DNA from: Burkholderiales bacterium
GTDB taxonomy: Bacteria > Pseudomonadota > Gammaproteobacteria > Burkholderiales > SG8-39
Direction of reading: 5' to 3'
Length of the DNA stretch: 64,000 nt
Assembly: GCA_026417035.1 (NCBI GenBank)
Contig: JAOAEA010000006.1
Span: 1 to 64,000 of the forward strand
Part shown: piece after piece, positions 30,473 to 34,403 of the stretch
Position numbering within the stretch: the first letter of the stretch is position 1
Layout of the letters: each line of letters begins with the position of its first letter
The notes under the pieces: model-generated
The model's database searches: none
The model's input: only the letters and a program-made list of their open reading frames with translations
Told to the model about the DNA's origin: nothing
Position numbers and translations under genes: made by a program

Positions 30473-31843
30473 CTACTTGACCGTCACCTCGACGCGCCGC
30501 GCCTGCGGATCCTCGCCCGCGACGTTCGCCTGCACCGCGATCGGCTTCACCAGGACGACGCGCTCCTCCGCGATCCCGGCGACCTTGAGCGCGTCGCGCA
30601 CCGCGACGGCGCGGTTCTTCGCGAGCTCCTGGTTCGCCGCGGCATCGCCGGTGGCGGAGTGGTAGCCGGAGACGGTCGCCTTGGCCCGCGGATCGGCCTT
30701 GAGCTTGGCCACGATCGTCGTCAGCGTCTTCGGCGCGGCGTCGTGGAGCGCGGCGGAACCGACGCCGAAGTACACGACGACCATCTCGCCGACGACCACC
30801 GGCTCGGGCACGGGCGCCGCCACGGCGACCTTGCCGACGGCGGCGAGCGCGGGATAGTCCTTCAGCATGTTCGCGCCGCCGAGCGGCTTGTGCATCCCCT
30901 GGTGGCAGGTGGCGCAGTTCGCCTTCGGGGCGTCGCCGAGCGGGCCGAGCCGCTCCGCCGGGTAGGTCTTGCCGAGCGGCTCGAGGTAGTGCGCGTTGAG
31001 GTCGCGCACCATGCGGATCCCGTACCAGGCGGTGGCGCGCGTCGGCGGACCCTCCCACGACGCGAACGAGCGGCTGTTGTGGCAGAAGGTGCAGTTCTCG
31101 CCGAGCGCCTGCGAGATGTGCATCATCAGCCCGTAGGTCGCCTCGGTCTGCTGGATGCTCGCCTCGTGGCCGTTCGGCAGCGCCTGCGGGGCGAGCACGC
31201 GGATCTGCTGCGCGCCGCCGAGGAACGGCGAGAACGGGTCGTAGGGCAGCGAGGCGAGCGCGACCGACTGCGCCGCCGCGTTCTGGCCGGCGCGGCTGCC
31301 AGCGAGGCCCCTGGTGGTCCGCGGCCCGGGATCGGCGGTCCAGTAGTTCGCAGGCACCGCCTGCCCGCGGTGGCAGGTGTAGCAGGTCACCCCGGTGTCG
31401 GCGACGTGCTTCTTCCAGTCGGCGTTGATGTGCCGCGTCATCTGCAGCATGCGGCGCGCGACCACCTTCGTGTAGAGGTTGTCCTCGGAGAGGTCCTTGC
31501 CCTCGACGTGACAGTAGAGGCAGGCCTTGTCCGGGGGCGCGACCCAAGTCGTGATCGCGACCATCAGCCGGTTGAAGTCGTTCACGCTCAAGTCGGTCAG
31601 CACCTGGACGTTCTTGTAGACCGACGTCGCGGGCGGGCTGCCCGGCTCCGCCGGCGGGGTCGGCGCCGGGGCCACGTTCGCGGCGGCCCTCGCCGCGAGG
31701 ATGCGCGGGTTCTGGATGTCCACCATGCCCGTGCCGCGGAAGCCCTGCTGCGTCGACTCCATCGGCGGCCGCTCGCAGCCGGCGAGGAGGAGTGCGGCCG
31801 CGACGCCCGCGGCCGCGGCGAGCCTGCTCGTGTTCGCGTTCAT
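30473..31843 (-). CDS. pufC: Reaction-centre tetraheme cytochrome with C-terminal OmpA-like domain
   Basis: The product is 456 residues; PufC is normally about 330-360. It is a lipoprotein (LLLAGC, Cys23). Four heme sites follow: CLYCH at 108-112, CYTCH at 154-158, CTFCH at 251-255 and CATCH at 310-314, with [20 protein letters not shown] between. This part donates electrons to the special pair from the periplasmic side. After a Val/Ala/Pro linker (about 335-352) the last 104 residues read [39 protein letters not shown] and [15 protein letters not shown], ending ARRVEVTVK, an OmpA-like fold. The peptidoglycan-binding Asp of GHTD appears as Ser (GYHS), while the Arg in NRA is kept. The start overlaps pufM by four bases. 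Confidence 0.93.
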
Positions 31844-32820
31844 TGCGGCGCTCCCGGAAGGGTTGCCGGATCGACCACCGGCGGGAAGACGTCGGGTATG
31901 GGCGGGGCGACGCCGTGCTTGACGGCCCAGAGGTACCAGTTGTCCACGACGGTCCCGGTGAGCAGGATGCCGATGCCCCCGGTGAGCGGCGTCAGCACCG
32001 CGAACCACCACGCCCAGCGGTGGATCGACTCCATCGTCGCGTTGAAGCCCATGGTCCAGCGCCAGAAGAGCGCGGCGCGCTCGGAGGCCGTGCCACGGTC
32101 GGTGATCTGCTCGAGCTCGCGCTCGCCGGCGAAGCGGCTCACCGCGAGGATGGTCGCGCCGTGCATCGCGAACAGCATCGTCGAGCCGTACAGGAAAGCG
32201 ATCGACAGGGCGTGGAACGGGTTGTAGAAGAGGTTGCCGTAGCGGATCGAGAAGGCCGCCGTCCAGTCGAGGTGCGGGAAGATGCCGAAGGGCACCGCCT
32301 CGCTCCAGCTGCCCATGAGCAGCGGCCGGATGAAGCCGAGCACGAGGTAGAGCCAGATCGCCGAGGCGAACGCCCAGGCGACGTGCGTGCCCAGGCCGAG
32401 CGCGCGCGCGCGGCGGTAGGTGCGCAGCCACCAGAGCAGGATCGACGCGGTGAGGAAGAAGCCCGCGATCAGCCACCAGCCGCCCTTGTTGAGCGGCGGG
32501 ATCCTCAGGCCGTACTCGGGCGGCGGCGGCTCGAGCGCGAGCCAGGGCAGCTGCCGCACGAACTGGACCGGGTCCCAGTTCACCGACGCCCACATGTTGA
32601 GCCCGATGATCTCGATGGCGATGACGCCGCAGACGATCGACGCGAGGCCGAGGAAGCCGAGGTAGAACGGGCCGATCTGCGCGTCACCGATCTTGCCGGC
32701 CCAGTAGGCGAAGAACGGCTTGCCCTGCCGCACCCACGAGCTCGGCCCCATCGGCACCCCCAGGTGCACGGGGCTGCGCACCTGCACGCTGGTGAAGATG
32801 TTCTGATACTCCGCCGCCAT
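31840..32820 (-). CDS. pufM: Photosynthetic reaction centre M subunit
   Basis: The product (326 residues) is one of the two core pigment-binding subunits, with five membrane helices. The N-terminus [12 protein letters not shown] is typical. The bacteriochlorophyll ligands lie in [30 protein letters not shown], and iron ligands occur in [14 protein letters not shown], the loop Glu region [22 protein letters not shown], and [20 protein letters not shown]. The start is 18 bp after the pufL stop with GGGAGAGAA ahead. The C-terminal tail (about 20 residues past the last helix) contacts PufC in known structures. It overlaps pufC. Confidence 0.97.
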
Positions 32821-32838: not shown

Positions 32839-33663
32839 CTAGCGCCAGATCGGAAGGTCGAGCCACCAGCTCCACCACTCGGGCCAGCCGCGCGTCCAGA
32901 ACGGACCGCTGATCACGATGCAGATCGCGCTCCAGATGCCGGCCGCGAGCGCGAGGAAGAGCCCCAGCCGGTGGATGCCGAGCGAGCCGATCGAGTAGCC
33001 GACGAGGTCGCGGAAGTACGCGTTCTCGTGCTCGGCCCCCTTCACCGTCTCGCCGCGCTTCGGGTTGGTCGCCGAGAGGATCAGCGACCCGTGCAGCGCG
33101 AGCGCGAGCGTGGTCGTGAAGAAGAGCGACACCGCGATCATGTGCGCCGGGTTGTAGTGGAAGTGCAGGTACTGGTAGCCGACGTTCGAGACCCAGTCGA
33201 GGTGGCTGAAGATGCCGTAGGGGAAGCCGTGCCCCCACGCCCCGAGCAGGAGCGGGCGGATCACGACCAGCGTCACGTAGGCGAAGATCGCGACGCCGAA
33301 CGCGAACGGGACGTGCAGCCCCATGCCGAGCTTGCGCGCGATCTCCACCTCGCGCAGCGCCCAGGAGACGAACGCGCCGATCGCGCACACCGTGATGAGC
33401 TGCCACAGCCCGCCCTCCTTGAGCGGCGCGAGCTTCAGGCCGTAGCTCAGGTCGGGCGGCGCGATGCTGATCTGCCAGATGTTCCAGGTCGGTCCCAGCG
33501 CCGCGCCCCAAATGATGAGGGCGGTGCCGAGGATGGAGAAGAAAATCGTCGTCACGCCGAAGAAGCCGACGTAGAACGGCCCGACCCAGAAGTCGAAGAG
33601 GTCGCCCCCGATCAGCGTTCCTCCGCGAACGCGGTACTTACGTTCAAAGCTGAGCATGGCCAT
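32839..33663 (-). CDS. pufL: Photosynthetic reaction centre L subunit
   Basis: The product (274 residues) starts at ATG 33663, giving [19 protein letters not shown], the near-universal PufL N-terminus; AAGGAG lies upstream. Five membrane helices are present. Pigment and iron ligands are in [39 protein letters not shown] and [35 protein letters not shown], near residue 210, is the quinone-side signature. The protein carries the special pair, accessory bacteriochlorophyll and the secondary quinone. It follows a stable hairpin that separates it from pufA. Confidence 0.97.
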
Positions 33664-33712
33664 CGCTCGGTTCTCCTTCAAAGGCCAGGGTGCTGCGCGC
33701 TCGCGGTCGCGG

Positions 33713-33763
33713 ACGCGGGCGGGGACGGGCGCACGCCCGGTCCCCGTCCGCCTCCGCCCGCGT
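33713..33763 (-). promoter_or_regulatory. pufA-pufL intercistronic hairpin
   Basis: Beginning 6 nt after the pufA stop, the minus-strand RNA can fold into a long GC-rich stem. ACGCGGGCGG pairs with CCGCCCGCGT at the base, and GGGGAC and GGGCG pair with GTCCCC and CGCCC above, interrupted by an 8-nt bulge. No U-run follows, so it is not a simple terminator. In Rhodobacter a hairpin at this place protects the upstream LH1 mRNA segment and gives more LH1 than reaction centre. The same role is inferred here. Confidence 0.75.
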
Positions 33764-33769
33764 GCCGGA

Positions 33770-33988
33770 CTACTGCGTCGCCGTCGGCGCGGGAGCCTGC
33801 ACCGTGGTGACCGGCGCGGCCGGCATCACCTGCGAGCTCTTCGCCTTGGGCGCCTTCTGCCCTTCGATCCAGTTGTACTTGTCGGTGCTGAGCAGGATGA
33901 AGTGGATCAGCAGCGCAAGCGCGAACAGGAAGACGAAGAGCGCGATCAGGGTCCTGCGGGGGTCGAAAAGAAGCCAGAGTCGCCACAT
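33770..33988 (-). CDS. pufA: LH1 alpha polypeptide
   Basis: The product (72 residues) starts [14 protein letters not shown], the standard LH1 alpha N-terminus, followed by one membrane helix ([20 protein letters not shown]) with the bacteriochlorophyll-ligating His29 and the post-helix [12 protein letters not shown]. The C-terminus is extended by about 20 Ala/Pro/Thr/Val-rich residues (ending [10 protein letters not shown]), as in some purple bacteria. TAGGAGAAACGGAAAC precedes the ATG. It is 13 bp downstream of the pufB-like orf74, not directly after pufB. Confidence 0.96.
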
Positions 33989-34001: not shown

Positions 34002-34226
34002 CTATGCGAGGTACGACATGAACGTGTAGACCGATGCCTTGACGCCTTCCACCAGCGAGCGCGCGCCCTCCGCCCCGGGGAACCAGGCGCGCCAGTCCCG
34101 CGTGACGACCTGCGCCGCGAGCGCGATCAGCAGGAAGACGATGAAGCTCGCCACGAAGATGCCGCGAAAGCCCGGCGAGGGGCCCTGCGGCAGCCGCGAC
34201 GGCGAGTCCCTTCTTTCTCCAGTCAT
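34002..34226 (-). CDS. PufB-like protein lacking the bacteriochlorophyll-ligating His, with C-terminal extension
   Basis: The product (74 residues from ATG 34226) lies between pufB and pufA. Its first 49 residues align to PufB with no gaps and 19 identities, including FRGIF/FHGVF, the SFI..F membrane stretch and WRAWF/WRPWL. At residue 39, where PufB has the bacteriochlorophyll ligand His, this protein has Gln; His21 of PufB is Arg. After the WRAWF end it continues for 25 residues ([20 protein letters not shown], then SYLA), an amphipathic helix. A longer frame starts only at a TTG, so I chose the ATG. It could be a pigment-free LH1-associated subunit, a ring spacer or an assembly factor. I cannot tell whether such proteins are already described. 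Confidence 0.85.
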
Positions 34227-34253
34227 AGTCTGACCCGTCCCCAAAGGGCCCCG

Positions 34254-34403
34254 TCAGAGCCAGGGCCTCCAGTTCCACGCCAGAACGTGGGCGATGATGG
34301 CGACCACCGTGAAGGCGATGAAGCTGGTCATGAAGACCCCGTGGAACTCCTTCGCCTCGTTCTCGGTCAGCCCGGACAGCGAGCCTTTCCTTTCCTCAGC
34401 CAT
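34254..34403 (-). CDS. pufB: LH1 beta polypeptide
   Basis: The product (49 residues) is LH1 beta. It has the cytoplasmic segment [18 protein letters not shown], one membrane helix and the terminal [15 protein letters not shown], in which His39 ligates bacteriochlorophyll and WRPW is the beta signature. TTGGAGGTACTGCACAT precedes the ATG. It is the first puf gene, 179 bp after bchZ. That gap has no perfect TGT-N12-ACA site, suggesting puf may be read through from bchCXYZ or controlled by other factors. No pufQ is present upstream. Confidence 0.96.

Follow-up and report, generated by a model that had tools for sequence, protein, structure and literature searches.

A small open reading frame (ORF) at the place of the gene examined here, designated X, has been described twice. 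ORF74 of Roseateles depolymerans is located, by its locus tag, between pufB and pufA (PMC10037100), and ORF2 of Rubrivivax gelatinosus is listed as a protein of unknown function that was compared with PufA2 and set aside given its low identity and the lack of a His (PMC12817894). X matches both, likened by place and length. All three are positioned between pufB and pufA, ORF74 also encodes 74 aa, and ORF2, like X, is without the central His. An earlier reading of the DNA, made from the letters alone (the sequence-only reading), had raised the questions of whether a function is already assigned in related species and whether the protein is ever made. In the available text of the two papers, ORF2 and ORF74 are both of unknown function (PMC12817894, PMC10037100), and ORF74 mRNA is among the three most changing puf loci (PMC10037100), evidence that is at the mRNA level. 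A Roseateles-like genome (G662), tied to Roseateles by one exact match to a 20-mer primer from PMC10037100, encodes an X ortholog of exactly 74 aa between pufB and pufA that is 56% identical to X over 70 aligned positions. The second primer from PMC10037100 was not found near X in this genome, which may therefore belong to a closely related species and not to R. depolymerans itself. As far as their available text goes, the ORF74 and ORF2 papers do not describe a beta paralogy, the tail or a link to the form of PufB, and the originals from 1994 and 2002 may note the beta likeness. The ORF itself is already known; added here are its beta lineage, distribution, residue statistics, the origin of its tail and its complementarity with tailed beta.

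Gene X and the puf operon

The window, the whole 64,000-nucleotide stretch that was analysed, contains the following puf operon features, all on the minus strand and given in the direction of transcription.

34254 to 34403, minus strand: pufB, LH1 beta, short form, 49 aa, ligand His39 present (PF00556, E 9.6e-12)
34238 to 34242, minus strand: Shine-Dalgarno-like GGGGA of X (duplex energy with the anti-SD -8.1 kcal/mol)
34002 to 34226, minus strand: X, beta-like paralog of 74 aa (ORF74/ORF2 family), with ATG at 34226 and a stop codon ending at 34002
34083 to 34175, minus strand: predicted transmembrane (TM) helix of X, residues 18-48 (AlphaFold2, 16 homologs)
34110 to 34112, minus strand: Gln39 codon (CAG) of X, at the site of the bacteriochlorophyll (BChl)-ligand His of PufB (X-PufB alignment)
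34068 to 34079, minus strand: PGAE motif of X, residues 50-53 (residue counts, 59 distinct homologs)
34008 to 34055, minus strand: conserved C-terminal helix of X, residues 58-73 (AlphaFold2, dN and residue counts)
33770 to 33988, minus strand: pufA, LH1 alpha, 72 aa (PF00556, E 1.6e-17)
33675 to 33775, minus strand: pufA-pufL intergenic hairpin (-59 kcal/mol, z -1.84)
32839 to 33681, minus strand: pufL, reaction-centre (RC) L subunit (PF00124)
31840 to 32820, minus strand: pufM, reaction-centre M subunit (PF00124)
30473 to 31843, minus strand: pufC, tetraheme cytochrome subunit with a C-terminal OmpA domain (PF02276, PF00691)

The sequence-only reading gave no strand for X. Its description of X as a PufB paralog between pufB and pufA is confirmed by a single BLASTP comparison with PufB of the window, which aligns the two without gaps and with 19 identities in 49 positions (E 9e-14), placing Gln39 of X opposite the ligand His39 of PufB and Arg21 opposite His21. 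A further 25 residues, from P50, come after WRAWF. The intergenic gaps are 27 bp (pufB to X) and 13 bp (X to pufA), and no terminator-like site was found between the three genes. An AlphaFold2 model of X based on 16 homologs (mean pLDDT 71) has a helix at residues 18-48, with a pLDDT of 86 for residues 21-40 as a block, and a second helix at residues 58-73. A fold search with this model returned one match (E 9), two helices being too little for such a search, and tblastn of X against plasmids gave one weak match, without annotation.

Domain profiles do not recognize the X family. The best of 16 members reached E 0.09 with PF00556, short of the cut-off, and neither PF05398 (PufQ) nor PF11511 (PufX) matches X. 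In the genome that includes the window (89.6% complete), pufA and pufB alone score above the PF00556 cut-off, and LH2 genes were accordingly not observed; PufX had no match and PufQ had no match over the cut-off, in agreement with the earlier statement that pufX and pufQ are absent. PufC of the window has its OmpA domain (PF00691) after the tetraheme domain (PF02276), and similar PufC tails are present in six relatives (L015, L091, L125, L129, L131 and L133), all of which carry X.

Distribution and conservation of X

Homologs of X, for which the sequence-only reading had proposed a search in other puf operons, are indeed present at the same place. A sample of 398 Burkholderiales genomes contained 48 with pufM, two of which were left out as their contigs end in this region, and of the 46 with a readable pufB-pufA region, 38 have X and 8 do not. 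In a sample of the whole phylum there were 27 phototrophs outside Burkholderiales, and none of the 24 puf operons fetched from these has X. The record titles of the named loci point to Burkholderiales, many of them to Comamonadaceae. Two records, titled Rickettsia typhi and Bordetella parapertussis (L029, L032), have comamonad-like puf operons on their contigs, and their titles look wrong or the bins contaminated. The gene order pufB-X-pufA is constant across the family, X being 74 or 75 aa in length, and X forms one clade relative to beta and the other small ORFs (SH-aLRT 96, from few alignment columns). Three loci (L078, L079 and L082) have a divergent LH1 pair, with a beta that starts NPSGLTD and low beta and alpha scores, and still have X between pufB and pufA.

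The ligand position is occupied in the 59 distinct X sequences by Gln (50), Thr (5), Ser (2), Gly (1) or Leu (1), and never by His, whereas the ligand His is kept in all 57 partner PufB sequences. In the alignments, the N-terminal beta motif GLTxxEAxEFH is also gone from X. Other positions are almost invariant: A35, W45 and W48 are each present in 58 of the 59 sequences and, within PGAE, P50 and G51 are present in all 59, A52 in 57 and E53 in 56. The median dN/dS is 0.43 for X, 0.21 for beta and 0.28 for alpha, consistent with purifying selection on X, and with conserved homologs at the same place in many genomes this rules out a chance ORF. Within X, constraint is strongest in the tail (PGAE...GVKxxVYTFMSHL), which has a median dN of 0.24 versus 0.73 elsewhere.

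The tail of X and long-form LH1 beta

The PDB matches of X are LH1 beta chains, and the best of these have long C-termini. The best match, 8z81_B (E 1.5e-9 with the single protein and 1.4e-14 with the profile), gives an alignment that extends into the tail; no X-type chain was found in the PDB, and PufX and protein-W were not among the matches. Burkholderiales without X (G007, G088, G222, G307 and G336) encode a PufB that has both the His and a tail, such as PGSEGYTSMYEGIKAAVYNVVPYAFMG. When the X and long-beta profiles were compared, hhalign gave 99.7% and a score of 121, with 100 column shuffles reaching at most 32, and the tails alone gave 98.5%, far above the column shuffles. A PufA control gave about 1%. 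Chance similarity of X and long beta is rejected by the shuffles and this control. On these profile and PDB comparisons, the tail of X is homologous to the C-terminus of the long-form LH1 beta of relatives and of solved structures. The 25 residues, which had been read as an addition to X, were therefore not gained by X but lost from PufB of the window, and pufB of the window is, as judged by the same homology, a short copy from which the tail has been lost.

In the operons sampled, X and a tailed beta do not occur together. In 70 operons with distinct L and M, X is present with a short beta in 37, a long beta without X in 19 and neither in 14; there is none with both. The best tree of L and M requires at least four changes of X, whereas well-supported branches force only one, so that the exclusion is clean, yet reflects few independent events, and a tree-aware independent-pairs test of it cannot reach significance. 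Three Burkholderiales (f22) and several Alphaproteobacteria are devoid of both X and a beta tail, and the tail is therefore not essential to LH1. In the literature surveyed, no function was found assigned to the beta tail.

Expression

Suyama and co-workers (PMC10037100) report that the major 1-kb puf transcript covers pufA, pufB and ORF74 together. In a sigma-factor mutant these three loci show the greatest reduction, and they also change most on carbon starvation. The anti-SD duplex energies in the window are -10.6 kcal/mol for pufB, -8.1 kcal/mol for X and -7.3 kcal/mol for pufA and, over 57 operons, the SD strength of X does not differ from that of pufA (p 0.15) or pufB (p 0.11). Sub-stoichiometric translation of X was considered and is not supported by this comparison. 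Stem-loops at the pufA-pufL site raise LH1 over RC transcripts in Rhodobacter sphaeroides (PMC5725709). In the window, X precedes the pufA-pufL hairpin and has a ribosome site like those of pufB and pufA, which puts it with the genes expressed at the LH1 level, as the sequence-only reading had supposed. Given the co-transcription and a normal ribosome site, X is probably made in LH1-like amounts, as judged from mRNA- and initiation-level data.

Possible functions

The explanation that we tentatively prefer, and regard as quite possible, is that X is an accessory subunit of LH1 that derives from beta, is devoid of the His ligand and would provide the beta tail in trans. The gene for a long-tailed beta would have been duplicated, with one copy, pufB, keeping the pigment ligand and losing the tail. 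In the other, X, the ligand His and the GLTxxEAxEFH motif at the N-terminus would have disappeared, but the TM helix and the C-terminal helix would have been retained, along with the interface residues A-4, W+6, R/K+7 and W+9. X would then insert like beta and pair with alpha or sit beside beta, with its tail helix on the periplasmic side, where it would do what the tail of beta may do in relatives, namely brace the RC-LH1 ring and set its quinone pores. X retains the periplasmic-end residues used by beta and could pair with alpha. Against the accessory-subunit reading stand the loss of the N-terminal beta assembly motif, the lack of an X-type chain in the PDB, the phototrophs that have neither X nor a beta tail, and the small number of events behind the mutual exclusion. 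We infer the presence of X in RC-LH1, its copy number, its topology, the absence of pigment and the role of the tail. In other chlorophyll proteins Gln is known to ligate Mg, and X can therefore be called only presumably pigment-free. A more far-reaching proposal, and a somewhat unlikely one, is that the RC-LH1 of phototrophic Burkholderiales has a third LH1-level polypeptide that is pigment-free, beta-derived, present in many copies and carries the periplasmic tail that elsewhere is fused to beta. No description of a core antenna with pigment binding and tail split over two paralogs was found in the literature surveyed.

The main rival, which we consider unlikely, is that X is a PufQ-type biogenesis factor that handles BChl or its precursors, acts at the haem/BChl branch or is a chaperone for alpha, and does not stay in the ring. 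PufQ has reported roles in pigment handling and with ferrochelatase (PMC5725709), and the genome has no PufQ over the cut-off. At the pufQ position, three Burkholderiales that do not have X (f22) encode a small TM protein, and operons with X have no such ORF. The family of these pufQ-position ORFs gave hhalign values of 97.2% with X, not equalled in 100 shuffles, and 95.6% with long beta, likewise above all shuffles, and it is this similarity to both that makes a PufQ-like role of X conceivable. The tail of X alone, however, gave 2.6% with this family (4 of 60 shuffles as high, not significant), and X with Rhodobacteraceae PufQ gave a weak 41% (3 of 100 shuffles). The C-terminus of PufQ is predicted to be cytoplasmic (PMC5725709) whereas that of X, by beta homology, should be periplasmic, and the Burkholderiales with a long beta have neither X nor an ORF at the pufQ position. 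That X is PufQ itself was rejected, as there is no Pfam match and column shuffles can equal its profile similarity with the PufQ of Rhodobacteraceae. Many Alphaproteobacteria-like genomes in the phylum sample also have a small TM ORF upstream of pufB; pufQ-position ORFs were recorded at L087-L089, L097-L103, L106, L111 and L112, with PF05398 below the cut-off. In profile comparison, the tail alone of the pufQ-position ORF gave 90% with the Burkholderiales beta tail, and this ORF may also be of beta ancestry.

The sequence-only reading had suggested a PufX-like opening of the ring. X as a single-copy ring interrupter, similar in role to PufX or protein-W and creating one pigmentless beta position and a quinone gap, is less favoured and in our view quite improbable. 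A beta-like helix unable to hold the usual BChl could end the ring, the genome has no PufX match, and a single-copy LHC-domain chain in the RC-LH1 entry 8k5o matches the X profile weakly (E 0.012). That opening gained no direct support, given the lack of a match to PufX or, in the PDB, to PufX or protein-W, which has three TM helices (PMC7806223), and the LH1-level position of X, before the pufA-pufL hairpin and with normal ribosome sites, whereas pufX comes after pufM. This position and the pufB/pufA-like ribosome sites argue for many copies of X rather than one per ring, and the relatives carry the homologous tail on each of their beta subunits. The 8k5o chain, which is chain 4 of that entry, has 105 aa and is present once, may be a precedent for beta-like chains in single copy. 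Least probable, and in our estimate very unlikely, is that X is an ordinary ring beta with Gln (or Thr/Ser, perhaps via water) as the BChl ligand, generating an LH1 spectral variant. The prevalence of Gln at the ligand position, a residue that, as noted, can ligate Mg, and the conservation of the pocket residues A-4 and W+6 are as such a role would have it, but Thr, Ser, Gly and Leu also occur at this position, the N-terminal motif and its His are missing, and the constraint on the tail exceeds that on the rest of X.

X is present in most of the sampled phototrophic Burkholderiales, freshwater aerobic anoxygenic phototrophs included, in the middle of the antenna operon, and so far has been an ORF of unknown function. 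Regarding X as a ligand-less, tail-keeping beta paralog, as in the accessory-subunit reading that we prefer, provides a concrete hypothesis for the role of the beta tail and predicts an extra subunit in the RC-LH1 of this group of Burkholderiales. In X and PufB, pigment binding and the function of the tail would then be naturally separated, so that each could be tested on its own.

Comparison with known small proteins of LH1

PufX and protein-W are, as X would be, small non-pigment membrane proteins (of the RC-LH1 of other lineages), but neither has sequence similarity to X; pufX has a different operon position and, in place of the three TM helices of protein-W, the AlphaFold2 model of X has one long helix and a short C-terminal helix. 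PufQ resembles X in size, in having a single TM helix and a conserved C-terminus, and in being encoded in the puf operon, but pufQ precedes pufB, X is not matched by PF05398 and the profile similarity is weak. The LH1 gamma of Blastochloris and the gamma-like polypeptide of Rhodopila globiformis (PMC9640540) are pigment-free small helices present in many copies, as inferred for X; the gamma-like polypeptide, however, has 22 aa, versus the 74 aa of X, and is reversely oriented (PMC9640540), and no sequence relation to X is shown. Long-tailed LH1 beta chains are found, for example, in PDB entries 8z81_B, 7xxf_B and 9m8m_B and in the Burkholderiales loci L080 and L083-L085. Although X differs from these in having neither the ligand His nor the GLTxxEAxEFH motif, and in falling below the PF00556 cut-off, it has in common with them one TM helix, the residues W+6, R+7 and W+9, and a C-terminal tail.
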